The notes under the pieces are model-generated. The model saw only the letters and a program-made list of their open reading frames with translations. It was not told the origin of the DNA and ran no database searches. Source: an uncultured Gemmiger sp. (GTDB lineage: Bacteria; Bacillota; Clostridia; Oscillospirales; Ruminococcaceae). From it: a stretch of 52,714 nucleotides of DNA. Made by a program: the position numbers and the translations under genes. Of the stretch, positions 15,315 through 44,291 are shown piece by piece (the first letter of the stretch is position 1; the number at the start of each line of letters is the position of its first letter). Location: NCBI GenBank assembly GCA_944386225.1, contig CALXAH010000024.1, positions 1 through 52,714 of the forward strand, in the 5' to 3' direction.

Positions 15315-16790
15315 TTACAGGATAATGCAGATCAGGCCGGAACAGCCCTCGTTGATGACCCGTTCCAGGGTCTCCTGCAGGCGGGCGCGGGCCTCCTGGG
15401 GCATATGCAGCAGCTTGTTCTGCAGCCCCTCGTTGACCAGTTCGTGCAGGCTTTTGCCGAAGATGTTGGACTCCCAGATCTTGAGCGGATCCTGCTCGAA
15501 GTCCTGCAGCAGGCTGAGAACCAGTTCCTCGCTCTGCCGCTCGGAGCCCACAATGGGGCTGATCTCGGTGTGGATGGTGGCCTTGAGCAGATGGATCGAG
15601 GGGGCGCTGGCCCGCAGACGGACCCCATACCGGCCGCCCTGGCGCACGATCTCCGGTTCCTCCAGGTGCAGCTCGCTGATGGCCGGCATCACGATGCCGT
15701 AGCCGGTGGCCTCCACCTGCTCCAGTGCGTTGCGGATCTTCTCGTATTCCCGGCGAGCCTTGGCCAGGCTGATCACGCAAGGCAGCAGGCTGGCCTCGTC
15801 GCAGACTTCCAGGCCGGTGGTCTCCCCCAATACCCGGTAGAAGATGTCCGGCTCCAGCTGCAGGCGCATCCGCACGGTACCTTCCGCCAGATCCATGCCG
15901 TCGATCACGGCGCTGCTCACATACTCGCAGGCAAAGGTATCCGCGTTGGCGGCCACGTCCTTCATCCGGTCGATCGGATCGGCCCACTCCCGCACCCCGG
16001 CATAGACCGCCTGCTGCAGCCAGTGGTCCGCATCCAGCATGGGAATCCACCGGGGCATGGCAAAGGCAATCTCCCGCACCGGGAACTCATACAGCACGCT
16101 GGCCAGGATCGCCTCCAGCGTCTGCACGTCCAGGTCCACGCAGCTTACCGGCAGCACCGCATGCCCGCACCGCTGCTGCATCTGCTGGGCCAGACGGCGG
16201 CTTGCTTCGCTGTCCGGCTCGGTGCAGTTGAGCAGCACCACAAAGGGTTTGCCCAGCGCTTCCAGTTCCTGAATGACCCGCTGCTCCGCCGGCTCGTACC
16301 GCTCCCGGGGAATGTCGCTGATGGAGCCGTCGGTGGTGATGACCAGGCCGATGGTGGAATGGTCGCAGATGACCTTGTGGGTGCCGGTCTCGGCGGCCTG
16401 GTCAAAGGGAATCTCCTCCTCAAACCAGGGGCTTTTGACCATGCGGGGCTGGTCGTTTTCCTCGTGGCCCATGGCCCCCTCCACCATATAGCCTACACAG
16501 TCGATCAGCCGGGTGCGGAAGCTGCCGCCCCCTTCCAGTTCCACCGTGACGGCGGTTTCGGGCACAAATTTGGGTTCGGTGGTCATGATGGTGCGGCCCG
16601 CGGCCGACTGGGGCAGTTCGTCCCGGGCACGGGCCCGGCGGGCCGGGTCGGTGATACGGGGGATCATCAGCAGTTCCAGAAACTTTTTGATAAAGGTGCT
16701 CTTGCCGCTGCGGACCGGCCCCACCACCCCGATATAGATGTCGCCTCCGGTGCGGGCGGCGATGTCCTGATACAGTTGCTCACGCTCCAT
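15315..16790 (-). CDS. spoIVA: Stage IV sporulation protein A
   Basis: ATPase that polymerises on the outer forespore membrane and forms the base layer of the spore coat. The 491 residues match the family length (about 492 in Bacillus subtilis). The Walker A motif GPVRSGKST lies at residues 24-32, with K30 at the same number as the lysine known in B. subtilis SpoIVA. TIMTTEPKFVP, the DHSTIGLVITTDGS segment and the C-terminal GLICIIL end are hallmarks. The last residues are needed for SpoVM-directed localisation in B. subtilis. It lies 22 bases after the sipL-like gene, probably in one operon. Confidence 0.97.
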   Translation of the reverse strand: MEREQLYQDIAARTGGDIYIGVVGPVRSGKSTFIKKFLELLMIPRITDPARRARARDELPQSAAGRTIMTTEPKFVPETAVTVELEGGGSFRTRLIDCVGYMVEGAMGHEENDQPRMVKSPWFEEEIPFDQAAETGTHKVICDHSTIGLVITTDGSISDIPRERYEPAEQRVIQELEALGKPFVVLLNCTEPDSEASRRLAQQMQQRCGHAVLPVSCVDLDVQTLEAILASVLYEFPVREIAFAMPRWIPMLDADHWLQQAVYAGVREWADPIDRMKDVAANADTFACEYVSSAVIDGMDLAEGTVRMRLQLEPDIFYRVLGETTGLEVCDEASLLPCVISLAKARREYEKIRNALEQVEATGYGIVMPAISELHLEEPEIVRQGGRYGVRLRASAPSIHLLKATIHTEISPIVGSERQSEELVLSLLQDFEQDPLKIWESNIFGKSLHELVNEGLQNKLLHMPQEARARLQETLERVINEGCSGLICIIL

Positions 16791-16812: not shown

Positions 16813-18330
16813 TCAGCCCACTACCGGGATCAAAAGCCGGGCGGGCGCGTCCAGACGGGGCTGTTCCAGCTGGTTTGCGCGCAGCAGCGCCGCCGGCGAC
16901 ACATGGTACCGCTTGGCAATGTGGAACACGTCCTCCCCTGCCTGGGCGTAGCAGATCCGCAGCGCCACGTCCGGATCGGCGGGCTCCAGCGGGTCCTGGC
17001 AGGCCATCTCGCTGACCACTGTCTGCTGCCTGGCCCGGGCCATCAGGCCGGAGATGCGCAGCGTCAGGTCGGCGGCCATGCCGCCGCTCTCCTTGCGGGC
17101 GGAGCACTGCACCACATCCGCCCAGCACTCGGCCCGGTACTCCTGGATCTGGCCCTCCCACACGTCGGGCAGCTGATACTCAAAGGCTTTGTCGTAGCAT
17201 TCGATCTCGCCCAGGCTGTTCAGACAGAGCACATGGGCGGTACCGCGGCCCCGCAGCATTACCCCCGGCCCGGCCTGGGCGGCTTCCGCCGGGGCCAGGC
17301 TGGCAAAGCAATGCAGGATACGGGCGTTCTCGTCCGGCAGGGCACCTTCCAGGGTCAGGCGCACCGTCTGGTCCACCGGCGCTTCCATCTGCTCCACCGT
17401 GACCGTTTTGTACTCCACCTGGGCGTTGTATTCGGTGGAGAAGGCATCCTCCACCACCACGCATTCCATGGGCCGCCAGACCCGCAGCCGCAGCATGGCC
17501 GTGACCGACACGGTGCCCGGCGTCTGGGGATTGGGGGCCGCCATCAGGGTGCAGCCCACCGGCTCCACGTAGGCAAAGCAGCGGCAATCCTCCGCCGCGC
17601 CGTCCACATCCACGATCTGATTGAAGGGCACCGCTCTGGTCAGCTGCTCCAGCTCACAGCCCGGGGCGGTGCGGTAAAGTACCCGGGCTTCCACTTCACC
17701 TTTTACCACCGCCTTGCCCGGCAGCAGACGGATCTCCTGCACGGTGGCAAGGCCGGTCACGTCCAGCACGGCTGCGGGCGGCGTGGGGAAGGTGATCTCC
17801 TCCTCGGCGGTGATGAGCTTATCCAGAGCCGCCACCGGGCGGGCCCCGGTCAGGGTACCCAGCAGCTGCTCGGCCCCGCTGCCGGACAGAGCCGTGATCA
17901 CCGGCTGCTCCTGCCGCAGGGTCAGGGTTACATTCAGCGAGAACGCCCCCCGCACGTCCACCCGGCGCTGATTCACCGCCCGGCAGTTCAGGTACTCCAC
18001 CTCGCCGCCTGTGTGCACCTGACAGCCGCCGTATTCCGGCGCGGGCAGATCCAGCGTTTTGGTGAACGGCAGTTTCTGCTCGGTCTGGCACAGGTTCTGC
18101 TGCTCGTCCGACTGGTAGAACACCACACACCGCAGATAGCCGTCCAGCGTGAGACGGCCGCCGGTGGTCTGGGCCTGCAGCACCACCGGCCGCACCTGGC
18201 ATTTGACAATCTTGAACACCTGCGGCAGATAGTCCGGGATCAGGATCTCGGTTTCGATGGGAAGTTCGGTCTTTGTATCGCACAACCCGCCCGCCGCAGT
18301 CAGGGTGTCTCTGAACACCTTCAATTCCAT
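16813..18330 (-). CDS. sipL: SPOCS/LysM spore morphogenesis protein, SipL-like
   Basis: A 505-residue protein with SPOCS (DUF3794) domains through most of its length and a C-terminal LysM domain (about 459-505, containing AGEDVFHIAKRYHVSPAALL). This is the layout of Clostridioides difficile SipL (about 527 residues), whose LysM domain binds SpoIVA, playing the part of SpoVID in Bacillus. It sits directly before spoIVA. The ATG at 18330 has AAAGGGG upstream; the 31-codon extension crosses the promoter region and is unlikely to be translated. A sigma-E-like promoter precedes it. The symbol is by analogy in domains and neighbourhood. Confidence 0.85.
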   Translation of the reverse strand: MELKVFRDTLTAAGGLCDTKTELPIETEILIPDYLPQVFKIVKCQVRPVVLQAQTTGGRLTLDGYLRCVVFYQSDEQQNLCQTEQKLPFTKTLDLPAPEYGGCQVHTGGEVEYLNCRAVNQRRVDVRGAFSLNVTLTLRQEQPVITALSGSGAEQLLGTLTGARPVAALDKLITAEEEITFPTPPAAVLDVTGLATVQEIRLLPGKAVVKGEVEARVLYRTAPGCELEQLTRAVPFNQIVDVDGAAEDCRCFAYVEPVGCTLMAAPNPQTPGTVSVTAMLRLRVWRPMECVVVEDAFSTEYNAQVEYKTVTVEQMEAPVDQTVRLTLEGALPDENARILHCFASLAPAEAAQAGPGVMLRGRGTAHVLCLNSLGEIECYDKAFEYQLPDVWEGQIQEYRAECWADVVQCSARKESGGMAADLTLRISGLMARARQQTVVSEMACQDPLEPADPDVALRICYAQAGEDVFHIAKRYHVSPAALLRANQLEQPRLDAPARLLIPVVG

Positions 18331-18360
18331 AGTTTCGCCCCTTTCGCGCGTTTCTATGGC

Positions 18361-18391
18361 CATGTATATGAGCGGCGCGGACAGGATATGC
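18361..18391 (-). promoter_or_regulatory. Sigma-E-like promoter of sipL-spoIVA
   Basis: Minus strand: -35 GCATATC (18385-18391), 14-bp spacer, -10 CATATACAT (from 18370 down). This resembles the mother-cell sigma-E pattern (about kmATATT, 14 bp, CATACAnT). It lies 30 bases before the sipL start, and no good sigma-A site is seen there. Confidence 0.5.
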
Positions 18392-18409
18392 AGACATGCC
18401 GGGCAGCAG

Positions 18410-18452
18410 AAAAGCCGGGGCACACCCGCTCTTTGGGTGCGCCCCGGCTTTT
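18410..18452 (-). terminator. Terminator after spoVM
   Basis: Very strong hairpin: 12-bp outer stem (18410-18421 with 18441-18452), one mismatch, 5-bp inner stem, 7-base loop, then a short T run on the minus strand. It separates spoVM from the sipL promoter. Confidence 0.75.
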
Positions 18453-18464
18453 GCTGAGGAGGGA

Positions 18465-18545
18465 TCAGCCCTCCCGGTTGATGTGAAAGATGGCCCGCAG
18501 AATACCCGCCAAGAATTTCGGACTTTTGATAACCACTACCTGCAT
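18465..18545 (-). CDS. spoVM: Stage V sporulation protein M (26-residue peptide)
   Basis: A 26-codon gene, exactly the length of B. subtilis SpoVM. Its core IKSPKFLAGILRAIF matches the IKLPKFLGGIVRAML stretch of that protein as I recall it: the same Pro-Lys-Phe-Leu, the two-residue turn and the Ile-(Leu/Val)-Arg-Ala helix. SpoVM is an amphipathic peptide that recognises the convex forespore membrane and anchors SpoIVA there. A GGGGAAG ribosome site lies upstream. Position is the strongest support: it follows thiN, as in Bacillus (prpC-prkC-rsgA-rpe-thiN-spoVM), and is followed by sipL and spoIVA, its partners. Confidence 0.88.
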   Translation of the reverse strand: MQVVVIKSPKFLAGILRAIFHINREG

Positions 18546-18590
18546 GGATGCTTCCCCGCTTTCTCCCGTCTGGGTGATGTTGGATGCTCC

Positions 18591-18618
18591 ATACTATGCT
18601 GCGGCGGGCAGAATGTGC
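18591..18618 (-). promoter_or_regulatory. Possible sigma-E-like promoter of spoVM
   Basis: Minus strand: GCACATT (18612-18618), 13-bp spacer, CATAGTAT (18591-18598). Weaker match than the one before sipL; it lies 45 bases upstream of the spoVM start. Confidence 0.3.
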
Positions 18619-18642
18619 GGCTTTTGCGGCAGTTCGGGAAGC

Positions 18643-19272
18643 TCAGTCCGCTTTGGTACAGATTACGGCCAGTGCCCCCTTGTCAATCCGCACGGTGACC
18701 GGGCGACGGTTTTCGGCCCACTCGTTGCTGACCCCGATCGGGAAATCCGGGGTCAGGACGGCGTTGTCCAGCTCATAGAACGCCCCCTGCACGCAGACGC
18801 CCTCGGCGCGGCCCTCCAGCGGAAACAGTGAAAAATACTGCCAGCACGCCGGCAGCAGGGTCAGGGTATGGCCGGGCAGCAGAAAGCGGATCTCGCTGCG
18901 CTCATTGGCCAGGCAGGTATCCACCCCCTGTTTCTGCAGCCACAGGCCGGTGGCCAGGTTGGCCAGGGTGTGTTCCAGCCGGGCGCCGCCCAGCGCCCCC
19001 AGGATGGTGACCTGTTTTGCGCCCTGTTCCGCCGCCAGCCGAGCGGCATAGTGGGTGTCGGTATCGTCCTTTACATGGGGCAGAACCACGGTATCCCCGC
19101 CCGGCGGGGGCGGTGCGGAATCAAAATCCCCCACCACCAGATCCGGTGTCAGGTCCAGTTTCTGCAGATTATGCCAGCCTGCGTCGCAGGCCACCAGACG
19201 GCAGCCCGGCGTGATGTAACGGCGCATCGCCTCCCCCACCGGGCAGGCAGACACGATCACCCAATCCTGCAT
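18643..19272 (-). CDS. thiN: Thiamine pyrophosphokinase
   Basis: Transfers pyrophosphate from ATP to thiamine, giving thiamine diphosphate. The 209-residue protein is of normal length (about 210). VVGDFDS (near residue 56) and KDDTDTHYA (near residue 80) are the conserved metal and substrate motifs, followed by the GGARLEHTLANL segment. The frame is open 76 codons upstream, but the ATG at 19272 starts the family N-terminus and has GGAAAGGAG before it. Gene order rsgA-thiN-spoVM is the Bacillus order, with rpe missing. Confidence 0.92.
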   Translation of the reverse strand: MQDWVIVSACPVGEAMRRYITPGCRLVACDAGWHNLQKLDLTPDLVVGDFDSAPPPPGGDTVVLPHVKDDTDTHYAARLAAEQGAKQVTILGALGGARLEHTLANLATGLWLQKQGVDTCLANERSEIRFLLPGHTLTLLPACWQYFSLFPLEGRAEGVCVQGAFYELDNAVLTPDFPIGVSNEWAENRRPVTVRIDKGALAVICTKAD

Positions 19273-19310
19273 AGGGCATTCTCCTTTCCGCCCCGGTATG
19301 CGGGGCCGCA

Positions 19311-19346: not shown

Positions 19347-20222
19347 TCACTTTTTGAGTTCCCAGCTTTTTACGTCCTTGACCTCGTCGTAGATGGCGCA
19401 GTAGCTTTCGTAGCGGCTGGGGCTGATCTTGCCCTCGGCCAGGGCCTGCCGCACGGCGCAGCCCAGTTCGGTACGGTGGGAGCAGCCGGTAAACCGGCAC
19501 TGGCCCAGATAGGGCGCAAACTCCGGGAACGCATACTCCAGATTCTCTTTGGGAATGTAGCAGGCACGCTCCAGATCCAGGCTGGCAAAGCCCGGGGTGT
19601 CGGCGATGCGGCCGCCCAGCGTCTCAAAGATCTCCACCTCCCGGGTGGTATGGCGGCCGCGGCCCAGCTTCTGGCTGATGTCGCCGGTCTGGCGGCCCAG
19701 CTCCGGCGAGAGAGCGTTGAGCAGGGTGGATTTGCCCACCCCGGAGTTGCCGCAGAAGGCGCACAGCTTGCCGGCAATGCGGGCGCGGATCTCATCCAGC
19801 CCCGCGCCGGTCTCATGGTCTACCCGGATACAGGCAATCCCTGCCTTTTCGTAGGCGGAGGCCAGATTTTCGTCGCTGGCCAGATCGCCCTTGGTGATCA
19901 CCAGCACCGGTTCGGCGTCCTTATCCACCGCAATGGCGGACAGCTTATCCAGCACCAGGGTGCTGGGCACCGGCTGCACCGTGCTGGCCACAATGAACAG
20001 CACGTCCAGGTTGGCAATGGGCGGACGCACAAACACGTTTTTGCGCGGGCCGATGGAGGCAATAACGGTGGTGCCCTGTTCCCGTTCCAGGGTTACGGTA
20101 TCCCCCGCCACCGGCGTGATGCGCTGTTTGCGGAAGATGCCCTTGGGCTTGCATTCCACAATTCCCTCGTCGGTTTTCACATAGTAAAAGCCGCCGATGC
20201 TTTTGGCAATATAGGGTTCCAT
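19347..20222 (-). CDS. rsgA: Ribosome small-subunit GTPase RsgA
   Basis: Circularly permuted GTPase that checks maturation of the 30S subunit. The 291-residue protein has an N-terminal OB-fold, then G4 (TKGD), G1 (GNSGVGKSTLLN) and G3 (DTPG) in the permuted order. Near the C-terminus is the zinc site C-x5-C-x-H-x5-C in GQCRFTGCSHRTELGC. The ATG at 20222 has GAGG seven bases upstream; a TTG at 20234 would overlap the prkC end and is less likely. It follows prkC closely, as in Bacillus, where the kinase phosphorylates this GTPase. Confidence 0.95.
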   Translation of the reverse strand: MEPYIAKSIGGFYYVKTDEGIVECKPKGIFRKQRITPVAGDTVTLEREQGTTVIASIGPRKNVFVRPPIANLDVLFIVASTVQPVPSTLVLDKLSAIAVDKDAEPVLVITKGDLASDENLASAYEKAGIACIRVDHETGAGLDEIRARIAGKLCAFCGNSGVGKSTLLNALSPELGRQTGDISQKLGRGRHTTREVEIFETLGGRIADTPGFASLDLERACYIPKENLEYAFPEFAPYLGQCRFTGCSHRTELGCAVRQALAEGKISPSRYESYCAIYDEVKDVKSWELKK

Positions 20223-20230
20223 ACGCTGCC

Positions 20231-22096
20231 TCAATCCTTATCCTCGTCCCCGCCCGTTGGCGTGGACTCCGGTGTAGTAGTGGAGGAAGGCTCCGTGGGC
20301 TTGGGAGTAGCGGAAGGCGTAGCAGTGGGCGTCGGGGTTGCCGTCGGGACCGGGGTGGGTTCCGGCGTGGGTTCCGGCGTAGGCTCAGGCCCAAGCGAGA
20401 CGACCACGTCCACGCGGGAGTTCCAGTTGGCCTCGCTGCCCGGCTCCTTGCTCTGGCTGATGATCACATCCACGGGATATTCGCTGCTGTACTCGGTGGT
20501 CTGCAGGCCCAGGGTGAGCATCTTGTTCTGCAGAGCGGTGGCTGCCTGTTCCACCGTCAGGCCGCGCAGGTCGGGCACGGTGGTAGTGGTATCTACCTCC
20601 TCACGGCTGACGATCAGGCGCACCTGAGTGCCTACCGCTACCTCGGCCCCGGCCTCCGGCTCGGTACGGATCACGGTACCCACCGGATAGTTGTCATCCA
20701 CCTGCGGGGTGATGCTGACCACCAGGCCCTGCCCCTGCAGGCGGGTAGTGGCATCCTCGGAGGTCATGCCGTACACGTCCTCCACATTCACGATCTCGGT
20801 GCCCTTGCTGACCTTCAGGGTGACGGTCTGGCCCTCCTTGACGGTACGGGGCGGACGGGGACTCTGACTGTACACCTGCCCGGCAGGGTACTGGGAGTTG
20901 TACTCCTCCTCAAACACGATATTGAACTGAGAATAGGCAGGGTTGCCCTCAATCTCGTCCCGGGTCATGCCCACGAAATTCACCAGTTCCACGTCCGCCC
21001 GGTTGCTGAACAGGGGGTTGGTGGAGTTGGTAAAGATGATATAGCACAGGATGGCAGCGCCGATGGCAAAGGCGGCCGCCATACCCGCCAGGATCGGCAG
21101 CGTATAATTTTTGCGTTTTTTCTTTTTGGGAGCCGGGCGGCGGGTGCCGCCGGCGGACGGCTTGGCGCCGGAGCCGGATTTGGTTTGCTTGACCACTTTG
21201 TCGATATACCTCTCTGGTTCAGAATCTGTCAGATACTCGTACTCAAACCGGATGCTGGGGTTCTGCTTGAACTCCTCCAGATCCATGAGCATGGCCCGGG
21301 CGCTGGGATAGCGGTCTGCCGGGTCCTTGGCCATGGCACGGGCGGTGATGGCCTGCAGGCCTTCCGGCACCTGGGGCGCGACCTCACCCAGCGGGGTGGG
21401 GGTGTCGGAAATCTGCTTGATGGCCACCGATACCGCGCTGTCCGAGGTGAAAGGCAGTTTGCCGGCCAGCATTTCGTAGAGCATCACGCCCACTGAGTAG
21501 ATGTCGGTCTTGCCGTCGGTAACCTCGCCTCGGGCCTGTTCCGGGCTGATGTAGTGCACCGAACCGATGGCCTTTTCGCTGACCACCTGGCTCTCGGCCC
21601 GGGAAAAGCGGGCAATGCCGAAATCCATCACCTTGATACTGCCGTCGGCCAGCAGCATGATGTTCTGGGGCTTGATGTCCCGGTGCACAACGCCCTTGCC
21701 GTGGGCGTGATCCAGCGTCTCCAGAATCTGGGTAATAAAATGGACGGCTTCCTTCCAGGTGAGCGGGCCGCCCCGCTGGTTCAGATATTCTTTCAGCGTG
21801 ATGCCGTCGATGTATTCCATGACGATATACTGGATCTTGTCGCTCACCGACACATCGTATACCTTGACGATGTGGGGATGATCCAGAATGGAAATCGCCT
21901 TGGACTCGTTCTTGAACCGCTGGACCAGCTCCGCGTTTTCCATGAATTCCGGCCGCAGGATCTTGACGGCCACCACCCGGTCCTCCTTCAGGTCGCGGGC
22001 GCGGTAGACATTCGCCATACCGCCCACGCCGATCAGGCCTTCCAGCAGATAGCGGCCATCCAACCGTTTGCCGATCACGTGTTCCAGATTGTCCAT
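20231..22096 (-). CDS. prkC: PASTA-domain Ser/Thr protein kinase
   Basis: Membrane Ser/Thr kinase that senses cell-wall fragments through its outer PASTA domains. The 621-residue protein has a kinase domain (about 14-275) with glycine loop GVGGMANV, K45, HRDIKPQN with catalytic D140, and DFGIAR. A single membrane segment follows at about 332-356, then three PASTA domains (about 365-570). The tail of about 50 residues is rich in Pro, Thr and Glu, with repeated EPTP units and an acidic end, and probably reaches into the wall. Directly preceded by its phosphatase gene. In Bacillus this kinase acts in stationary phase and spore germination. Confidence 0.96.
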   Translation of the reverse strand: MDNLEHVIGKRLDGRYLLEGLIGVGGMANVYRARDLKEDRVVAVKILRPEFMENAELVQRFKNESKAISILDHPHIVKVYDVSVSDKIQYIVMEYIDGITLKEYLNQRGGPLTWKEAVHFITQILETLDHAHGKGVVHRDIKPQNIMLLADGSIKVMDFGIARFSRAESQVVSEKAIGSVHYISPEQARGEVTDGKTDIYSVGVMLYEMLAGKLPFTSDSAVSVAIKQISDTPTPLGEVAPQVPEGLQAITARAMAKDPADRYPSARAMLMDLEEFKQNPSIRFEYEYLTDSEPERYIDKVVKQTKSGSGAKPSAGGTRRPAPKKKKRKNYTLPILAGMAAAFAIGAAILCYIIFTNSTNPLFSNRADVELVNFVGMTRDEIEGNPAYSQFNIVFEEEYNSQYPAGQVYSQSPRPPRTVKEGQTVTLKVSKGTEIVNVEDVYGMTSEDATTRLQGQGLVVSITPQVDDNYPVGTVIRTEPEAGAEVAVGTQVRLIVSREEVDTTTTVPDLRGLTVEQAATALQNKMLTLGLQTTEYSSEYPVDVIISQSKEPGSEANWNSRVDVVVSLGPEPTPEPTPEPTPVPTATPTPTATPSATPKPTEPSSTTTPESTPTGGDEDKD

Positions 22097-22222: not shown

Positions 22223-22972
22223 TCAGGGCGCGGGGGCTGCCGCCGGCTCCACGCCGATCAGCAGCACCGTAATGTTATCCTGACCGCCATGCTCCAGGGC
22301 CTTGGCCACCAGAACATCCGCCGCCTCATAGAACGGAACTTCGGTCAGGATGCGGGCCATGGTCCGGTCACTGACCGGATTGCTGAGCCCGTCGCTGCAC
22401 AAAAGAAGCACATCCCCCGGCCGCACCGCGCATTCACCGGTCTCGGTTTCCACCGTAGGGTTGACCCCCAAAGCACGGGTGATGATGTTTTTTCGGGGAT
22501 GGGTGGCCGCCTGCTGGGCGGTGATGGCACCGTTCTCCACCAGTTCCTGCACCATGGAATGATCCCGGGTAAGCTGGCGGATCTGCCCGGCCCGGAACAG
22601 ATACACCCGGGAATCCCCTGCGTGGAACAGCCAGGCATGACCGCCGCGCACCAAAGCACCGGCCACGGTAGTACCCATGCCCGCGTGCTCCCGATGCCGG
22701 CTGGCCTCCTCATAGATGGCCTGGTTGGCCTGCTGCACAGCCTGCCGCAGGAATTCGATCTCCTGTCCTGGCGCCAGATCTGCCAGGCCCTGATCAAAAT
22801 ACTCCTCCAGCGTCTGTGCCGCCAGCTGCGAGGCCAGCTTGCCGGAATTGGCCCCGCCCATGCCGTCGCAGATCAGGCCCCAGACGGTGTCGTCCGGCAG
22901 GCGGGCAGCCCGATAGTTGTCCTGATTTTCCAGCCGGCCGTAGCCGATATCGGTTTTGGCTGCCAGTTTCAT
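22223..22972 (-). CDS. prpC: PP2C-type Ser/Thr phosphatase
   Basis: Metal-dependent phosphatase that reverses PrkC phosphorylation. The 249-residue protein shows the PP2C motifs: DIGYGRLENQDN near residue 8, ICDGMGG near residue 34, AGDSRVYLFR, and LLLCSDGLSN followed later by DNITVLL. The start overlaps the rlmN stop by four bases (ATGA). The gap of 126 bases to prkC has a GC-rich region that can pair (around 22141-22148 with about 22195-22202), perhaps adjusting the kinase to phosphatase ratio. Confidence 0.96.
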   Translation of the reverse strand: MKLAAKTDIGYGRLENQDNYRAARLPDDTVWGLICDGMGGANSGKLASQLAAQTLEEYFDQGLADLAPGQEIEFLRQAVQQANQAIYEEASRHREHAGMGTTVAGALVRGGHAWLFHAGDSRVYLFRAGQIRQLTRDHSMVQELVENGAITAQQAATHPRKNIITRALGVNPTVETETGECAVRPGDVLLLCSDGLSNPVSDRTMARILTEVPFYEAADVLVAKALEHGGQDNITVLLIGVEPAAAPAP

Positions 22973-26244: not shown

Positions 26245-26771
26245 TATTCCTCTCCGTCCTCGTCGAATTCTTCTTCGTCCTCGTAGAAATGGTCGGCCAG
26301 ATCCAGGATGGTCACACCATCCAGATGGTTGGTCTCGTGGCAGACGCAGCGGGCCAGCATGTCCTCCGCTTCCAGCTCAAAGGGATTGCCATGCCGGTCG
26401 AACGCCCGCACCTTGACCCGCTTGGGGCGGCTGATGGCCGCGTTGCGGCCGGGGAAGGACAGGCAGCCTTCGTAGAGCATGACCTCTTCGTCGCTGCGTT
26501 CCAGAATCTCCGGGTTGATGAACTCCAGATACTTGGGTTCGTACCCTTCCGGCACAGTGCCGTCCTCGGGCAGATCCCGTTCATCCAGGCTTACGAACAC
26601 CCGGCGCATGACCCCCACCTGAGGGCCGGCCAGGCCGTAGCCCTCGGCGTCGGCCAGGGTCTCGATCATGTCGTCCAGCAGAGTAGCCAGACGGTCGTCA
26701 AAATTGGTCACCGGGCGGCAAACCTTTTTCAGAATAGGATCGCCGTCCTGTACGATGGTGCGCAGAGCCAT
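26244..26771 (-). CDS. def: Peptide deformylase
   Basis: Removes the formyl group from new proteins. All three motifs are present: GYGLAGPQVG (about residue 44), EGCLSFPG with metal ligand C103, and HETNH with H145, E146 and H149. The 175-residue chain ends in an acidic tail of about 15 residues (YEDEEEFDEDGEE), longer than usual and without known role. EGCLSFPG and the inserts resemble the Gram-positive type. Confidence 0.96.
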   Translation of the reverse strand: MALRTIVQDGDPILKKVCRPVTNFDDRLATLLDDMIETLADAEGYGLAGPQVGVMRRVFVSLDERDLPEDGTVPEGYEPKYLEFINPEILERSDEEVMLYEGCLSFPGRNAAISRPKRVKVRAFDRHGNPFELEAEDMLARCVCHETNHLDGVTILDLADHFYEDEEEFDEDGEE

Positions 26772-26802
26772 AGTTTTCCTCTCCTTTTTTCGGCGGGCGG
26801 CG

Positions 26803-29067
26803 TTACAGATCGCCGTCTGCGTTGAAATCCAGTGTGACCGCTGCCTTGGCGGGCAGACCCTCCTCCCCGTACCGGGCCAGGACGGCGCGCATCAGGGCGC
26901 GGAAATCGTTTGTGTTGCGGCATTTGATGGTAAGCTTGAAACGGTACAGATCCTTGACCATCGCCACGTTCATGGGGGCGGGCCCCAGCACCCGCATGGG
27001 CAGTTTGGGCCAGTTCTGGCGGGCCGTTTCGGCCAGGATCGCGGAGAACCGGGCGGCCGCGGCCAGCGCCGGGCCTTCCTTTTCGCCGGAAAAACCCACC
27101 ATGCACAGATCGCAGAAGGGCGGGTACAGGCACAGCTGCCGGAAGCCGATCTCCTCTTCAAAGAAGGCTTCGTAATCCTGCTTGGCCGCCAGCTGCAGCA
27201 CCGGGTGCCCCGGGCAGACGGTCTGGATGATGGCCCGGCCGGGATACTCCGCCCGGCCGCCCCGGCCCACCACCTGGGTAATCAGGCTGAACACAGTCTC
27301 ATACGACCGGTAGCCCTGGCTGAACAGCAGCGAATCAATGCCCAGCACCCCCACCAGGGTGACCTTTTCAAAATCCAGCCCCTTGGCCACCATCTGGGTG
27401 CCCAGCAGGATGTCATACTCCCCTTTGGCAAAGCGGGCCAGCAGCTGTTCGTGGGCGTTTTTGCGGCTGGTGGAATCCTGATCCATCCGCAGCACACGGG
27501 CTTTGGGGAACAGGTTCTCCAGTTCTTCCTCCACCCGCTGGGTACCGAAGCCGGTATACAGCAGTTTGCCGCCGCACTGGGGGCAATGGGTGGGAGCGGG
27601 CTTGATCGTTTTGCCGCAGTAATGGCAGAGCATCTGCCCCTGGGCTTTATGGTAGACCATGGGCACGCTGCAGGACGAGCATTTCAGCGCGGCCCCGCAG
27701 TCCTGACACAGGGCCACGGTGCGGTATCCCCGGCGGTTAAGCAGCAGAATGGTCTGCTGGCCATTTGCCAGGTTTTCCCGGATGGCGTCGGCCAGAGGCT
27801 GGCTGATATCCTCCGGGTTGCCGGCGGCGGCTTCCGCCCGCATATCCACGATCTGCACCGGCGGCAGCGGCTGCCCGGCATACCGATGGGTGAGCCGTAC
27901 CAGCTGGTACCGGTCCTGCCGGGCGGCCCGGTAGTAGCTTTCCACCGAAGGGGTGGCGCTGGCCAGCAGCAGCAGCGCGCCGCTGTCCGCCGCCCGCAGC
28001 CGGGCCACGTCATGGGCATCAAACCGGGGGCTGGACTCGGAACGGTAGGTATGCTCCTGTTCCTCATCAATGATGATGAGCCCCAGATTCTGCAGCGGTG
28101 CAAAGATGGCGCTGCGGGTGCCTACCACGATCTGGGCGCCGCCCTGCTGGATCATCCGCCATTGCAGCAGCCGCTCGGTATGGTTGAGGGCGGAGTGCTG
28201 CACCGCCACCCGGCTGCCGAAATTTTCTTTCAGGCGGCGGATCATCTGGGGGGTCAGGCTGATTTCCGGCACCAGCACCAGCGCGGTGCGGCCCAGTTCC
28301 AGCGTGTGACGGATCAGTTCCAGAAAGACCAGCGTTTTGCCGCTTCCGGTAACCCCGTGCAGCAGCGCCGCGTGGGGTTTGCCCGCCTGCAGCGCGGGCA
28401 GCAGCGCATCCAGGGCGGCCTGCTGCTCATCGGTCAGGGTGATGGTCTCGCTGGTCAGCGGGATATGGGCGTACAGATCCAGGGTTTTGTCCACCTGTTC
28501 CTTTTCCAGCACGCCCTTTTTGACCAGATTGTCCGCCACGGCGGCGGATACCCCGGCCTGCTGCAGTTCCTCCCCGGTCAGGGGGCCGTCCCGCAGCAGC
28601 TGTACCGCCAGGATCTGGGTCGGGGTGGGGCGGGGCTTTTCCGGCAGGGGCGCCGCCAGCCGGTACTGGGGCTGGGTGTGGCGCACCAGCTGCTTTTGCA
28701 GCACCGGACGGCCATCCTGCAACACAGGGCGGTACTGGGCCCCATAGGGAATGACCGTTTTTACCGCCTCATACCAGGTACAGAAGGTGCGCTCGTGGAG
28801 AAACTCCACCAGGCGCAGCAGATCGGGGGTCAGGCAGGCGCTTTCCGGCGCGGCGTCATAAAGCGGTTTGACACGGGGGGAGAGCTCCGCGCTCTCCCCT
28901 GCCGCCAGCACCACCGCCATGCGGGGCTTGTCTCCCCGGCCGAACGGCACCAGTACCATCCCCCCTACCGGCACCTTGCCTTCCAGTTCCGGCGGAACCC
29001 GATAGGTATAGAGTTTGTCAAAATGAAGGGTGGCGTTGTTTACCGCCACTTGCACGGTATGCGGCAA
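26803..29067 (-). CDS. priA: Primosomal helicase PriA
   Basis: 3'-5' helicase that restarts stalled replication forks. The 754-residue protein has an N-terminal DNA-binding part, Walker A GVTGSGKT (near 243), a DEEQEHT box, and a zinc domain with eight cysteines in CxxC pairs (about 450-490). QVVGRGGRAEYPG and the C-terminal domain follow. No ATG fits; a TTG at 29067 has AAAGGGG six bases upstream and is the best start (a GTG four codons later is possible). In Bacillus, coaBC and rpoZ lie between gmk and priA; here the gap is only about 27 bases and both are absent. Confidence 0.95.
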   Translation of the reverse strand: MPHTVQVAVNNATLHFDKLYTYRVPPELEGKVPVGGMVLVPFGRGDKPRMAVVLAAGESAELSPRVKPLYDAAPESACLTPDLLRLVEFLHERTFCTWYEAVKTVIPYGAQYRPVLQDGRPVLQKQLVRHTQPQYRLAAPLPEKPRPTPTQILAVQLLRDGPLTGEELQQAGVSAAVADNLVKKGVLEKEQVDKTLDLYAHIPLTSETITLTDEQQAALDALLPALQAGKPHAALLHGVTGSGKTLVFLELIRHTLELGRTALVLVPEISLTPQMIRRLKENFGSRVAVQHSALNHTERLLQWRMIQQGGAQIVVGTRSAIFAPLQNLGLIIIDEEQEHTYRSESSPRFDAHDVARLRAADSGALLLLASATPSVESYYRAARQDRYQLVRLTHRYAGQPLPPVQIVDMRAEAAAGNPEDISQPLADAIRENLANGQQTILLLNRRGYRTVALCQDCGAALKCSSCSVPMVYHKAQGQMLCHYCGKTIKPAPTHCPQCGGKLLYTGFGTQRVEEELENLFPKARVLRMDQDSTSRKNAHEQLLARFAKGEYDILLGTQMVAKGLDFEKVTLVGVLGIDSLLFSQGYRSYETVFSLITQVVGRGGRAEYPGRAIIQTVCPGHPVLQLAAKQDYEAFFEEEIGFRQLCLYPPFCDLCMVGFSGEKEGPALAAAARFSAILAETARQNWPKLPMRVLGPAPMNVAMVKDLYRFKLTIKCRNTNDFRALMRAVLARYGEEGLPAKAAVTLDFNADGDL

Positions 29068-29094
29068 TCGCTGCCCCTTTCCGGGCCGAGCCGG

Positions 29095-29661
29095 TCAGCC
29101 CTCTTGTCTTGCCCGGATGATCTCGTACAGCTGCCGGGCGCAGTCGTCCACCTCCCGGTTGACCACCGTGGCGGTGTACTGATCCGCCAGGGCCAGCTCC
29201 TCCCGGGCGCGGGCGAGGCGGCCCTGGATGGCCTCCTCGCTCTCGGTGCCGCGGCCCCGCAGGCGGTGTTCCAGTTCTTCCAGGCTGGGGGGCGCCACAA
29301 AGATGGTGGTGGCCTCCGGATACAGGCGGCGGATATTGCCCGCGCCTTCCACCTCAATCACCAGCACCACGGTGACACCCTGGCCGATGCGGCGGTCTAC
29401 CTCGGACTTGGGGGTGCCGTAGTAGTTGCCGCAATAACAGGTGTGCTCCAGGATTTCCCCGGCAGCCAGTTTCGCTTCAAACTGGTCGCGGGTCATATAA
29501 TAATAGTTTACCCCTTCGGCCTCGCCGGGACGCATGGCCCGGCTGGTGGCCGAAACCGAGATCTCAATCTCCGGGTGCAGCTGCCGCAAACGGCTTACGA
29601 CGGTGTCTTTGCCGGAGCCGGAAGGCCCGGACACAACCACCAGATACCGATCCTTATTCAT
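29095..29661 (-). CDS. gmk: Guanylate kinase
   Basis: Phosphorylates GMP to GDP with ATP. The 188-residue protein starts [20 protein letters not shown], with the P-loop close to the N-terminus, followed by the GMP-binding segment around [19 protein letters not shown]. The start at 29661 is the one that places the P-loop as in the family; it overlaps the remA end by eight bases. The order yicC-remA-gmk is widespread in Firmicutes. Confidence 0.96.
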
Positions 29662-29929
29662 CTTCCAGTTCCTCATCCAGTTCATCCGCATCGTCGTTGT
29701 CGTTCAGACGGTTCGCCACCGTCTCCGGCTGCACAGCCGACAGGATCACATGGTCGGAATCCATGATGATCACCGCCCGGGTGCGGCGGCCATAGGTGGC
29801 GTCGATCAGAGCACCCTTGTCCCGGGCTTCCTGCACGATGCGCTTGATGGGGGCGGATTCAGGGCTCACAATGGCGATCAGCCGGTTTGCGCTGACCATA
29901 TTGCCGAACCCGATGTTGATAAGCTTCAT
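29654..29929 (-). CDS. remA: RemA-like DNA-binding protein (DUF370)
   Basis: In B. subtilis RemA is a DNA-binding activator of matrix and osmoprotection genes that forms rings. This 91-residue homologue has the family core: [20 protein letters not shown] at the N-terminus, the PIKRI helix and the [12 protein letters not shown] segment with the arginines that contact DNA. The C-terminal 15 residues are strongly acidic and extra. It lies in its standard place between yicC and gmk. Confidence 0.93.
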
Positions 29930-33431: not shown

Positions 33432-34850
33432 TTACCACAGGTTCATGACCTGCTCGTACATCTCCACATAGGAGCGGGCAGAAACGTTCCAGCTGAAGTC
33501 GCACTGCATCGCGCGCTTGACCAGAACCGGCCAGCCCTCTTTCTGCCAGTAGCCTTCCTTGGCACGCCAGCAGGCCTCGTAAAGGTCATGGGCACTGTAC
33601 TGCTGGAAGACAAATCCATTGCCCTTGCCATCGCCGGAATCCTGAATGGAATCCTGCAGACCGCCGGTAGCGCGCACCACCGGGATGGTACCGTAGCGGC
33701 AGGCCACCATCTGGGCCAGGCCGCAGGGTTCGGACTTGGAGGGCATCAGGAAGATATCCGCGCCGGCATAGATCTGACGGGCCAGCGGCGGCACAAAGCC
33801 GATGTATACGCCCACGCGGCCGGGATGGCGGCCGCACAGATCACTGAAGAAGGACTCGTAGGCATACTCGCCGTTGCCCAGCACCACCAGCTGGATTCCC
33901 TGCTGGAGCAGACCCTCGGCCACGCTCTTGACCAGATCCACGCCCTTATGGCCAACCAGACGGGTAACCATCGCCATGATGGGGCTGCCGTCATCATCCA
34001 GGCCGAAACGCTCGATCAGCTGCTTTTTGCAGACCAGCTTGCCTTCCTGGAAGCTATCGGCGTTGTAATGGGCCGGAATGTTGGGATCCGTTTCCGGGTT
34101 GTAGCTGTCCACATCGATGCCGTTCAGGATGCCGCACAGCTTGTGCTGACGCTGACGCAGCAGACCGTCCAGACCGTAGCTGAACCAGGGATCCAGAATC
34201 TCGCCTGCGTAGGTGGGGCTGACGGTGCTGACCCGGTCGCTGACCTCAATGGCGCCCTTCATGAAATTGGCGCAGCCGTCATACTCCACAATGTGGGCGT
34301 CCTTGCGGCCGATACCGCAGATCTCCTCCAGGATATCCAGGCCGTACTTGCCCTGGTACTGGATGTTGTGGATGGTGAAAACCGTTTTGATCCGGCTGAA
34401 CTTGTCCAGATGACGGTAATACAGGTTCAGGTATACCGGAGTCAGGGCCGTCTGCCAGTCGTTGCAGTTGATCACATCCGGAGTGAAGTCGGTGTAGAAG
34501 AGCATCTCCATAATGGCACGGCTGAAGAACGCAAACCGTTCCGCGTCGTCATAGAAGCCGTACAGGCTGCCGCGCTTGAAGTAATACTCATTGTCCAGGA
34601 AGTAGAAGGTCACGCCTTCATACTCGCAGGTAAACAGGCCGCAGTATTGGCTGCGCCAACCCACCGGTACGCTGAAGTTGGTGACAAAGCTCAGCTGATC
34701 GCGGTATTTCATGGTCTCATACAGAGGCATGACCACGCGGCAATCCACACCGGAGCGAACCAGTGCCTTAGGCAGGCTGCCGGCCACATCGCCCAGGCCG
34801 CCGGACGCAGCGAACGGATTGGCCTCACTGGAGCAAAAAAGAACTCTCAT
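33432..34850 (-). CDS. glgA: Glycogen synthase
   Basis: Adds glucose from ADP-glucose to alpha-1,4-glucan. The 472-residue protein is a GT5 enzyme of typical length. The N-terminal signature reads AASGGLGDV: where E. coli GlgA has K15-T-G-G-L, this protein has A15-S-G-G-L. The C-terminal nucleotide site includes MPSKSEPCGLAQMVACRYGTIPVVRATGGL. HNIQYQGKYG is the usual linker region of the family. Last gene of glgB-glgC-glgD-glgA; no phosphorylase or debranching gene follows. Confidence 0.95.
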   Translation of the reverse strand: MRVLFCSSEANPFAASGGLGDVAGSLPKALVRSGVDCRVVMPLYETMKYRDQLSFVTNFSVPVGWRSQYCGLFTCEYEGVTFYFLDNEYYFKRGSLYGFYDDAERFAFFSRAIMEMLFYTDFTPDVINCNDWQTALTPVYLNLYYRHLDKFSRIKTVFTIHNIQYQGKYGLDILEEICGIGRKDAHIVEYDGCANFMKGAIEVSDRVSTVSPTYAGEILDPWFSYGLDGLLRQRQHKLCGILNGIDVDSYNPETDPNIPAHYNADSFQEGKLVCKKQLIERFGLDDDGSPIMAMVTRLVGHKGVDLVKSVAEGLLQQGIQLVVLGNGEYAYESFFSDLCGRHPGRVGVYIGFVPPLARQIYAGADIFLMPSKSEPCGLAQMVACRYGTIPVVRATGGLQDSIQDSGDGKGNGFVFQQYSAHDLYEACWRAKEGYWQKEGWPVLVKRAMQCDFSWNVSARSYVEMYEQVMNLW

Positions 34851-34883
34851 GTGTCTCCTCCTTGTTCAGGGTTATAGAGGGAG

Positions 34884-34953
34884 GGGGCGGGAGCCGAGGC
34901 GGCTCCCGCCCCTGGGGAGAAAAGGGCGGCCTCCGGTCAGGCCGACGCCTTTT
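34884..34953 (-). promoter_or_regulatory. Two hairpins between glgD and glgA
   Basis: The first on the transcript (about 34918-34953) has arms of AAAAGGCG type and ends in CCCTTTTCT, like a weak terminator. The second (34884-34895 with 34901-34912) is a perfect 12-bp GC stem without T run, close to the glgA ribosome site. Together they may reduce or stabilise glgA mRNA. Confidence 0.5.
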
Positions 34954-34961
34954 GGCAGGGT

Positions 34962-36086
34962 TTATACGGTCTGGCCCTTGGCCACATAGACCGGGAAGGT
35001 ATCGGTGCCGCACAGGTTCTTGTCGGCCGTAACCTTGACGCACTTGTCGGTGACCACATATTCCAGCGTAGCGCCCGGCTCCACCACGGTATCCTGCATG
35101 AGCACACAGTTCTTGACCTTGGCACCCTTGCGGATCCGCACGCCGCGGAACAGCACGCAGTTTTCAATTTCACCCTCAATCACGCAGCCGTCCGCCACCA
35201 TGCAGTTTTTCACCTTGGCATCCATGGCATAGCGGGTGGGGGCATCGTCCCGAACCTTGGTGTAGACGGGCTTGCCGGCCGGGAACAGCTGATCCAGGTT
35301 GGCCTCATCCAGCAGACGCATGTTCTCGTCGAAGTAGCTCTTCATGCTGGTGATCCGGGCGGTATAGCCCTTGTATTCCAGGCCCTGCACATTGAGCAGC
35401 TGCAGGTTGCGGGACAGGATATCCCGTTCAAAATAAACCAGACCGCGGCTGGTGGCATCCTGCACCATGGTGATCAGGGTCTCGCGTTCCACGATGTATA
35501 CATCCATGGACAGGTTCTGCACACCGGGACGGTAATCGTTGGTGAGCAGTTCCACCACACGACCGTCCTGCAGTTTGATGGTGTGGTTGTCGTTCTTGCA
35601 GCCTTCCGGAATCTCACGGCGCTCGTACAGCATGGTTACATCAGCGCCGCTGGCCACATGGGCCGCGATCAGTTCCTTAAAGTTGTAGTTGAAGGCAATG
35701 CTGGCCTCGCTTAGCACCACGTACTTCTCTTTCTGGTTCTTCAGGAACTCCAGAATGCTGGCCAGCGCTTCCACGCGGCCGTTGTACATCTTGACAGTGG
35801 ACTGGGCGTACGGCGGTACGATGTTCAGGCCGCCCAGTTTACGGGTCAGATCCCACTCACGGCCATTGCCCAGATGATCCATCAGGGAGTGGTAGTTCTT
35901 TTTTACAACAACGGTCACATTGGTGATACCGCCGTTGACCATGCTGGACAGCACAAAGTCGATCATACGGTACCGGCTGGCAAAGGGGATGGACGCCATT
36001 GTGCGCTTTTCCACCAGCTCCGGTACAAAATTATCGCCTGCGTTGGGCAGAATTACGCCCAGCGCGTTCGCAGTAGAATTTACCAT
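34962..36086 (-). CDS. glgD: ADP-glucose pyrophosphorylase regulatory subunit GlgD
   Basis: A 374-residue GlgC relative that in Firmicutes pairs with GlgC and modulates it. The N-terminal nucleotide-binding loop is altered: in place of the GGxGxRLxxLT motif it has [16 protein letters not shown], so it should not be catalytic alone. The [12 protein letters not shown] segment and the C-terminal left-handed beta-helix (about 275-360) are kept. Its ATG overlaps the glgC stop by seven bases, fitting a fixed ratio of the two subunits. Confidence 0.94.
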
Positions 36087-37294
36087 TGTTCTTCGCCCTC
36101 CTTCACGTCTTTGACCACCATGGCCTTGGGGCCGATCTTGGCGCCAGCACCAACGGTGATGCCTTCACCGACAACCGCTACGCCCCACTTGGTGATGTCG
36201 TCCATGTCCTCGGGACGCACACCTACCATGGCACCGCGCTTAACCACCACATTTTCCGCAATAATGGAGTAGCGCACGCAGGCACCGGGTTCCACCACCG
36301 AACCGGGCATCAGGATCGACGCCTCAACGGTAGCGCCCTCGGCCACACGGGTATTGTCAAACAAAACGCTCTGGATCACGGTACCGTCCACGCGGCAGCC
36401 TTCGGTGATCATGCTGTTGTCAATCACAGCCTTGTTGCCGATCTTATGGCCGGGCAGACCGGAAGTACGGGAATAGATCTTCCAGTTGTCATCCCACACG
36501 TCCAGCGCCACATTGGGATTCAGCAGGTCCATGTTCGCATCCCACAGGCTGTCGATGGTGCCCACGTCTTTCCAGTAGCCCTCGAAAGCATACGCAACCA
36601 TCTTTTCACCCGCGTTCAGCATATTGGGGATGATGTTCTTGCCAAAATCGTTCTCGCTGTTGGGATCGGCTTCGTCCTCGGTGAGGAATTTGCGCAGTTT
36701 TTCCCAGGTAAAGATGTAGATGCCCATGCTGGCCAGATTGCTCTTGGGCTCCTTGGGCTTCTCTTCGAACTTGGTGATGGTGCCGTTCTCGTCGGCAGTC
36801 ATGATGCCGAAACGGCTGGCCTCTTCCCAAGGCACCTCCATAACGGCGATGGTGCAGTCAGCGCCCTTCTCTTTATGGAAGTCCAGCATCTTGCCGTAGT
36901 CCATCTTGTAGATATGGTCACCGGACAGGATAACCACGTAGTTGGGCTCATACCGGTCGATGAAGTTGATATTCTGGTAGATCGCATTCGCGGTGCCCTT
37001 GTACCAGTCGGAGCCGGTGGCTGTCTGGTACGGAGGCAGCACATGAACACCGCCGTACAGGCGGTCCAGATCCCAGGGCTGGCCGTTGCCGATATACTCG
37101 TTCAGCACCAGAGGCTGGTACTGGGTCAGGATGCCCACCGTGTCAATGCCGGAATTGACACAGTTGGAAAGCGGAAAGTCGATGATCCGGTACTTTCCGC
37201 CAAAAGGCACCGCGGGTTTTGCCAGGCGCTGGGTAAGCGCATACAGACGCGAACCCTGACCGCCTGCCAACAGCATTGCGATACATTCTTTCAT
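36080..37294 (-). CDS. glgC: Glucose-1-phosphate adenylyltransferase, catalytic subunit
   Basis: Makes ADP-glucose from ATP and glucose-1-phosphate, the committed step of glycogen synthesis. The 404-residue protein has the intact catalytic loop [14 protein letters not shown] (about 8-21), [15 protein letters not shown] and [11 protein letters not shown] with the metal-binding aspartate. [20 protein letters not shown] is the sugar-phosphate site, and a C-terminal beta-helix follows. It is coupled to glgD and lies after glgB, with a weak hairpin between. Confidence 0.96.
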
Positions 37295-37336
37295 GACAAT
37301 TCTCCCCTTATTGGCGCATCGCGCCTTTTCTATTCT

Positions 37337-37368
37337 AAAAGGCCGTTGCTTTTAGACGCGGGCCTTTT
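37337..37368 (-). terminator. Weak hairpin between glgB and glgC
   Basis: Eight-base stem (37337-37344 with 37361-37368) with A/T ends and a 16-base loop. It could let part of the transcripts end after glgB. Confidence 0.4.
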
Positions 37369-37386
37369 TCGACTGTGTTCTCTCCC

Positions 37387-42527: not shown

Positions 42528-44291
42528 ATGAAACTGTTTACCCGCATCCTGGCCGGAACCGCCGCGGTGCTTTTGCTTGCCGGCTGTACTGCGTCGGAGC
42601 CGGCGATGACCGAAAGCGAAAGGTTTGCCGCCTACACCCATGAGCAGTTCTGCGAAACGGCAACCTCCAGTGCGCTGAACCTGAACTACACCCTGAGCCG
42701 CCCGGAAGAATGGGGCCTGGAGCGGATCACCCAGGAACCGTTCGGCGAACTGGATCTGGATTTTGCCAAAGACGCGGAAGAGTTAAAAACCGACCGGGAA
42801 GAGCTGAACGGCTATGACCGTTCGCAACTGACAGAAGCCCAGCAGCTGACCTGGGACGCATTGGATTTTGCCCTTACCACCCAGGAGCAGGCTGTAGGGA
42901 AAGAACTATACGACGACCTGCTGGGCCCGGTGACCGGCCAGCATATCAACGTACTGCTGAGTCTGGCTGAGTTCTCTTTCTACGAAAAAGCAGATCTGGA
43001 CGTATACATGGCTCTGTTGGAAGATCTGCCCCGGTACTTTGACTTTGTAGCACAGTATGAAACCATGCGGGCGGACGCCGGGATGGTAGCCGCTGCCGAG
43101 ACTCTGAATCAGGCCGCGGAATACTGTGAAATGATTTCCGCCGCCCCGGAAGACTGCCTGCTGGTAACCGGATTTGCCGACCGGCTGGCCGAACTGGACT
43201 GGCTGGAAGAAGCCGACCGCGCCGCATATGAGGCCCGCAACCGGGAACTGGTCTGCGGGCCGGTGGCCGAGGCCTATCAGGCGCTGGGTGAGTGCGCCCG
43301 GGAACTGTCTGCTCAGGCCGGCGAACCCCAGGGTCTGGCCGCCCGGTTGGATGACGGGGCGGACTATTACCAGCTTCTGGTGCGGGCCATGGTGGGCAGC
43401 GACCGTTCCATCGAAGACTACCAGAAACTGCTGATCAGCAGCATCAGCGAAGGCCTGATGGAGATGGGGCTGCTGTACCAGCAGGATCCGGCCGGGTATG
43501 AGGCGTTCTTCACCACCGTGCCGGCACAGGGCAGCCTGCCCCCGGAGGAGATTATTGCGCAGCTGCGGGAAGCCAGCAAGGAGGACTTCCCTGCTTCGGA
43601 AGAACTGCCCTACACCGTCAAGGACGTTCCCGCGGCGCTGGAGGAATATACCTCCCCTGCTTTCTTTATGATCCCGCCCATCGACAGCCAGGACAAAAAC
43701 ACCATCTATATCAACAACAGCGCGCTGGACGCCAGTTCCCTGTTCACCACGCTTGCGCACGAGGGTTATCCCGGGCACCTGTACCAGACGGTGTACAGCC
43801 AGCTGCTGGATCTGGACCCGCTGAACAATGAACTTTCCGCCACCGGATATGCCGAAGGCTGGGCTACCTATGTGGAGCACGAATATGGTTACAGCTATCT
43901 GGACGAGAGCGAAACCTACCGCCGCCTGGCCCGGCTGAACGCACTGCTGTCGCTGGAGGTGTCCGCCCTGGCAGACATCGGGGTAAACTGGGCCGGCTGG
44001 AGCGAGGACGATCTGGCCGCCTGGCTGGATATGCTGGGATTCAACGGAGATGTTGCCGGCGATCTGATGGCCCATGTATGTGCCGAGCCCGCCAACTATA
44101 TGGCCTATGCCGCGGGGTATCTGGAATTTATGGAACTGCGCAAGACCGCGGAAAACACCCTGGGCGATACCTTTGACGCACTGGAATTTCACACCTGGCT
44201 GCTGAACCAGGGGCCCGCACCGTTCCCGGCGCTGGCCGACCGGCTGTCGGTCTGGCTGGAGAGCAGCTCCGCCCTGGATCAGGCCGCCTGA
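42528..44291 (+). CDS. DUF885 lipoprotein, predicted zinc peptidase
   Basis: A 587-residue exported lipoprotein. The signal peptide ends in LLLAGC, with C20 as the lipid-modified residue. The body is a DUF885 protein, a family of thermolysin-like metallopeptidases. HEGYPGH at 411-417 gives H411, E412 and H417 as zinc and catalytic residues, and the downstream helix GYAEGWATYVEHE contains the likely third ligand. Full family length. Its start has AAAGGAG upstream, and a -10 TATAAT at 42484-42489 lies near. Transcribed alone, away from rplM. Probably trims peptides at the cell surface; substrate unknown. Confidence 0.88.
   Translation: MKLFTRILAGTAAVLLLAGCTASEPAMTESERFAAYTHEQFCETATSSALNLNYTLSRPEEWGLERITQEPFGELDLDFAKDAEELKTDREELNGYDRSQLTEAQQLTWDALDFALTTQEQAVGKELYDDLLGPVTGQHINVLLSLAEFSFYEKADLDVYMALLEDLPRYFDFVAQYETMRADAGMVAAAETLNQAAEYCEMISAAPEDCLLVTGFADRLAELDWLEEADRAAYEARNRELVCGPVAEAYQALGECARELSAQAGEPQGLAARLDDGADYYQLLVRAMVGSDRSIEDYQKLLISSISEGLMEMGLLYQQDPAGYEAFFTTVPAQGSLPPEEIIAQLREASKEDFPASEELPYTVKDVPAALEEYTSPAFFMIPPIDSQDKNTIYINNSALDASSLFTTLAHEGYPGHLYQTVYSQLLDLDPLNNELSATGYAEGWATYVEHEYGYSYLDESETYRRLARLNALLSLEVSALADIGVNWAGWSEDDLAAWLDMLGFNGDVAGDLMAHVCAEPANYMAYAAGYLEFMELRKTAENTLGDTFDALEFHTWLLNQGPAPFPALADRLSVWLESSSALDQAA

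Follow-up and report, generated by a model that had tools for sequence, protein, structure and literature searches.

Described SpoVM Systems and the spoVM Locus of an Uncultured Gemmiger sp.

The closest described SpoVM systems are those of B. subtilis and C. difficile. B. subtilis spoVM is reported to be a σE gene (PMC517825). The legend of Fig. 1 in Ribis 2017 (PMC5607322) presents Pro9 as the sole completely conserved SpoVM residue, and the same paper reports that the pair formed by I6 of SpoVM and Gly486 of SpoIVA is important in B. subtilis and that the proximity of spoVM to rpmB is conserved. For C. difficile it describes early mother-cell expression of spoVM, its cotranscription behind CD25622 (a 50-aa gene whose effect on sporulation the authors considered minor) and a SpoVM that is largely dispensable. 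Short spoVM genes were often missed by annotation in the past, as stated in Galperin 2012 (PMC3533761).

By analogy with known SpoVM, the protein would be made in the mother cell, where its amphipathic C-terminal helix, kinked at Pro9, would insert into the outer, convex membrane of the forespore; there the protein would bind the C-terminal region of SpoIVA. SpoIVA would form the base layer of the coat, which would be joined to the remaining coat by SipL, the protein that corresponds in clostridia to SpoVID.

The window, meaning the whole stretch of DNA analysed, comprises 52,714 nucleotides of the genome of an uncultured Gemmiger sp. The genes around its spoVM are the following:

15315..16790, minus strand: spoIVA, 491 aa (TIGR02836, 680.4 bits; PF09547/PF20438/PF20439)
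16813..18330, minus strand: sipL, 505 aa, with two SPOCS stretches (PF12673, 95.6 bits) and a C-terminal LysM (PF01476, 21.3 bits, cut-off 20.9)
18465..18545, minus strand: spoVM, 26 codons, MQVVVIKSPKFLAGILRAIFHINREG, ATG at 18545, TGA ending at 18465
18643..19275, minus strand: thiN, thiamine diphosphokinase (TIGR01378, 123.9 bits; start codon inferred), upstream neighbour of spoVM
19347..20234, minus strand: rsgA, ribosome small subunit-dependent GTPase A (TIGR00157, 208 bits)
20231..22096, minus strand: PASTA Ser/Thr kinase, prkC-like (NF033483/NF033484)
22223-22972: PP2C phosphatase preceding the kinase (NF033483/NF033484)

The spoVM ORF and Its Product

A preliminary description of this DNA had placed at 18465..18545, after thiN, a 26-codon spoVM with the length of B. 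subtilis SpoVM (26 aa) and its Pro-Lys-Phe-Leu and Arg-Ala core. The gene was confirmed and assigned to the minus strand, the description having named none, and each of these properties was found. The profile search that the description had proposed for the translated interval gave a clear match to the NCBIfam model SpoVM_broad (NF033436.3; 46.8 bits for a cut-off of 31, E 2.1e-12), and the SpoVM profile has a single match in the whole 3.38 Mb genome (E 9.6e-11; none other at E up to 10). The peptide scores under the cut-offs of the narrower NCBIfam model NF011327 (21.2 bits, cut-off 55) and of the Pfam SpoV model PF08183 (13.7 bits, cut-off 20.6). The remark that automated annotation commonly misses the gene is accurate historically and for PF08183, and it fails for SpoVM_broad. 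A search of solved structures with the peptide matched two chains, of which the best was B. subtilis SpoVM 2mvh (E 0.026). The two proteins share the core I6 K7. P9 K10 F11 L12. G14 I15. R17 A18 and differ by QVVV at residues 2–5 and the C-terminal HINREG of the window peptide. The gene also lies beside thiN in B. subtilis. No in-frame start earlier than the ATG at 18545 is present in the ORF list, and the plus strand of 18465–18545, read in the same register, is a mere fragment of a longer open frame. The minus strand of this interval encodes an ordinary SpoVM of the known family. It is a known kind of gene, of which a new member has been recognised by the correct call of a short gene.

An alignment of 27 SpoVM rows of the order has P9, R17 and F20 invariant in 27/27 and the consensus MKIVVxKSPKxLSGILRxIFxIKKE. 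The window SpoVM is 46–92% identical to the other rows. In the majority of rows residue 2 is K and a KK pair stands close to the C-terminal end, whereas the window genus has Q2 (a residue present in six of the 27 rows), H21 and N23. Because VVV or a close form of it is the rule at the N-terminus across the order, the proposal of a notably divergent homologue found no support and was dropped; of the two ends that had been considered unusual, the VVV start is normal and the HINREG tail does belong, with Q2, to the less usual parts of the protein. Pro9 is present. I6 is retained in the window genome, as is a SpoIVA Gly at −7 from the C-terminus that corresponds to B. subtilis Gly486 if judged by length only. 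Residues 10–26 would be amphipathic if helical, with a moment of 0.64 against a shuffle mean of 0.29 (0.8% of shuffles reach 0.64). Pro9 is replaced by Ser in the SpoVM of Neobittarella massiliensis, which stands outside the 27-row alignment (L059 6880-6957; ...IKSSKF...), and a SpoVM-like ORF of another relative (G051, L128) has Pro at position 8 and Gly at 9.

The window genus and C. difficile have in common a SpoVM of the same family and a coat pathway that uses SipL. Since the C. difficile protein is largely dispensable, essentiality is not to be assumed in the window genus, and by this analogy SpoVM may be helpful here rather than essential.

The spoVM–sipL–spoIVA Cluster

The genes spoVM, sipL and spoIVA lie on the same strand, spaced by 134 nt (spoVM–sipL) and 22 nt (sipL–spoIVA), and thiN ends 97 nt before spoVM. 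The reported proximity to rpmB does not apply right beside spoVM: neither the 97-nt nor the 134-nt gap could accommodate that gene, and sipL comes next. The cluster was traced in a sample of 61 genomes (the window's own and 60 relatives; 37 of the 61 from its family), where draft contigs make all cluster counts lower bounds. SipL and SpoIVA are within 3.5 kb in at least 37 of the 53 genomes that have both, SpoVM and SipL within 3.5 kb in at least 21/47, and the three together in at least 17/46. Among the 21 genomes with SpoVM near SipL, SpoIVA is on a separate contig in four (G016, G041, G050, G054), and SpoVM lies on the strand opposite to SipL in four (G009, G028, G041, G042), so the cluster is rearranged in places.

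In a class-wide sample of 118 genomes, among them that of the window and those of four relatives from the same order, SipL adjoins SpoIVA in none of the 59 genomes scored outside the order. Seven of these carry both genes on a single contig, at distances of 29 kb to 2.7 Mb; the remaining 52 have them on separate contigs, so that adjacency may be hidden by a contig break. The 60th scored genome (G171), from the same family as the window, has SipL adjoining SpoIVA. Of 80 named SpoIVA loci, many of them incomplete, 70 contain a SipL frame and 15 a SpoVM match. thiN adjoins spoVM in 12 of these 15; in one of the 12 (L075) it is on the opposite strand. The SpoIVA nearest to that of the window is from an uncultured Gemmiger sp. 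(CASFJO010000055.1; 95% identical), followed by that of Candidatus Fournierella. Among the literature matches listed, no title names a spoVM–sipL–spoIVA cluster, which may still be in print. This three-gene cluster for the coat base layer makes the SpoVM–SpoIVA–SipL set easy to trace across gut clostridia and, like the microprotein gene found upstream of spoVM in relatives (see below), deserves specialist attention.

Putative Transcription Signals

Inspection of the sequences bordering spoVM revealed the following elements:

18363..18391, minus strand: σE-like promoter of sipL, GCATATC (18385-18391), 14-nt spacer, CATATACA (18363-18370)
18404..18456, minus strand: strong hairpin resembling a terminator, in the spoVM–sipL gap, with AAAA 5′ and UUUU 3′ of the stem on either strand
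18546..18598, minus strand: spoVM leader, from the −10 sequence to the ATG
18551-18557, minus strand: GGGGAAG, a likely ribosome-binding site identified by eye, 5 nt before the spoVM ATG
18591..18618, minus strand: σE-like promoter of spoVM, GCACATT (18612-18618), 13-nt spacer, CATAGTAT (18591-18598)

The putative spoVM promoter agrees with 12 of 15 positions of the σE consensus, a match reached by 0.8% of 500 shuffles, and the match of the putative sipL promoter is reached by 0.2% of 500. The consensus is that of B. subtilis. The same scan gave no σE-like match before thiN or spoIVA. Across 22 spoVM loci that have no microprotein frame upstream, the window genus included, three are devoid of a promoter match and in eight more the match is reached by more than 10% of shuffles. 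The test therefore backs such a promoter only in the window genus and some neighbours. The hairpin between spoVM and sipL is in a stretch (18400-18475) that folds with a minimum free energy of −53.9 kcal/mol (z −6.15).

Conservation of spoVM and Sporulation Capacity of the Genus

All four genomes of the window genus (G000-G003) carry SpoVM. The peptide is identical in three of them and differs in the fourth at the last two residues. The preliminary description had named two findings that would speak against the gene: stops or frameshifts in relatives, and equal rates of synonymous and non-synonymous change. Neither was observed. The frame is intact in 3/3 congeners, and pairs of genus genomes have 2–8 synonymous and 0–3 non-synonymous differences at ~19 and ~59 sites, respectively. 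This substitution pattern indicates that spoVM is kept by purifying selection in the genus. The order-wide pN/pS is 0.29 (325 pairs of 26 sequences) with a pS of 0.83, synonymous sites being near saturation. Conservation extends to the sequence preceding the gene. In the alignment of the four genus genomes, 49 of the 53 columns of the spoVM leader are invariant (92%), a proportion higher than in the spoVM gene itself (83%), and the figures for comparison stretches are 63% (thiN end), 37% (sequence following the thiN stop) and 33% (terminator region). For sipL, 65/68 leader columns (96%) and 135 of the first 150 nt of the gene (90%) are invariant. The σE-like promoter sequences of both genes are conserved within the genus.

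The NCBIfam model detects SpoVM in 46 of the 61 genomes, while SpoIVA is found in 56 and SipL in 54. A profile built from the 27-row alignment gave a clear match in four of the 15 genomes missed by the NCBIfam model (G037, G048, G049, G054; E <=1.5e-5), a weak or chance-level match in nine and none in two. One genome that is 99% complete and has SpoIVA, SipL and SASP yields a best SpoVM match of only E 0.96 (G023). In the class sample SpoVM was detected in 26/118 genomes against 92/118 for SpoIVA; outside the order SpoVM is therefore often absent or beyond the reach of the model.

We regard spoVM as very probably a working gene (probability of about 0.92), in view of its family match, the selection on it, its coat-gene neighbours, the σE-like promoters and the presence of Spo0A and SpoIVB in the same genome. 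The alternative that survives best is that of a fading remnant, in a lineage unable to finish spores, where spoVM decays slowly or is kept by chance. It draws on the α/β-type SASP: the family PF00269 has matches in 45 of the 61 genomes and none in the four of the window genus, so spores of the genus may be absent or unusual. Several observations make a remnant improbable nonetheless. Six further genera of the family (G014, G016, G020, G022, G027, G033) likewise combine SpoVM and SpoIVA with the lack of a SASP match. The window genome holds SpoIVA, SipL and Spo0A (TIGR02875, 229 bits, cut-off 200), open and above cut-offs, as is the seen part of SpoIVB (TIGR02860, 307.6 bits, cut-off 305.25), whose gene is partly outside the locus. 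The excess of synonymous over non-synonymous differences in spoVM and the invariance of the spoVM and sipL leaders, compared with the thiN end, likewise argue against decay. Retention of the coat base genes beside the missing SASP match poses a clear question on sporulation in the genus. A literature search found nothing on sporulation genes of Subdoligranulum/Gemmiger, on Spo0A of Subdoligranulum variabile or on spoVM/spoIVA of Ruminococcaceae. The section of Galperin 2012 (PMC3533761) on non-sporogenous strains has an “Any SASP genes” entry for Clostridiales genomosp. BVAB3.

A second alternative to a working gene is that the conserved element is mainly RNA, the 53 nt between the −10 sequence and the ATG acting as a regulatory leader. 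That these nucleotides are more conserved than the codons is what this explanation would expect. However, the leader fold (18520-18592) is no better than that of shuffled sequences (z −0.46), and Rfam has no match at gathering score over 18200-18800, the listed sub-threshold ones (miRNA-type matches on the hairpin and one other) being all far below gathering scores. A structured leader RNA was rejected on these two results. The bias to synonymous changes also lies within the codons, and a conserved leader and a working gene are mutually compatible, which makes a purely RNA role very improbable. Inspection of the alignment by eye also pointed to an ORF that starts upstream and overlaps the leader of spoVM; it was discarded, its frame being broken by a one-base deletion in one relative (L011). 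A chance ORF resembling SpoVM, for which only the length of 26 codons could be invoked, is hardly conceivable given the single genome-wide match at E 9.6e-11, the conserved place beside thiN and the purifying selection.

A Membrane Microprotein Upstream of spoVM in Relatives

A frame of 47–75 aa with a strongly hydrophobic stretch ends at most 115 nt upstream of spoVM in 24 of 46 spoVM loci, as compared to 66 of 1800 random anchors in the same loci. These frames are all outside the window (L002-L005, L007, L009, L010, L015, L020, L021, L026, L027, L030, L042, L043, L047, L050, L053, L059, L101, L107, L111, L112, L114). Their alignment has a mean column identity of 33%. The N-terminus is basic (MRR), and two hydrophobic stretches, the first of them helix-like (AFGLGLLL), flank a turn that contains P or S. 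None of six microproteins tested exceeded a curated Pfam or NCBIfam cut-off, the best weak match being to DUF2062 (E 0.004).

Searched with a 22-member profile, the 61 genomes yielded 33 matches, spread over 31 of them; 28 of the 33 are on the same strand as a SpoVM match and 19–113 nt upstream of it, and none is in the four genomes of the window genus. The microprotein adjoins SpoVM in 28/61 genomes, or in 25/61 (25 of the 33 matches) when three weak SpoVM matches (G051, G052, G055) are left out; in these three genomes the SpoVM-like ORFs are directly behind the microprotein and are missed by the family model. For the 18 matches in genomes that lent no row to the profile via their own loci, 14 are adjacent to SpoVM (11 without those of G051, G052 and G055), although these genomes may overlap named records that lent rows. 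One match that is not adjacent (G053, E 1.5e-6) is near sipL with no SpoVM ORF visible behind it, and the four remaining ones are weak (E 0.001–0.007). No convincing SpoVM ORF was seen in G053 or G047.

The microprotein resembles CD25622 of C. difficile by its place before spoVM and its length of ~50 aa. By the 22-member profile, the window genus has no such upstream gene. Among the literature matches listed, no title names such an upstream microprotein, which may still be in print. We consider it a testable candidate partner of SpoVM. A more speculative reading, which we hold to be unlikely, is that SpoVM and a ~50-aa two-helix membrane microprotein with a basic N-terminus would constitute, in the order, a two-part module acting at the forespore membrane. 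The window genus would have lost the microprotein and the SASPs, yet would keep the SpoVM/SipL/SpoIVA cluster under selection, so that the coat base layer would work in an atypical spore or serve another strongly curved membrane.

Other Features of the Window

Two long plus-strand ORFs, at 26668-29766 (1032 aa; no Pfam match at E 0.001) and at 42528-44291 (587 aa), have no NCBIfam match at E 1e-10. The glycogen synthesis genes glgA, glgD, glgC and glgB follow one another in a row on the minus strand (33432-39408).
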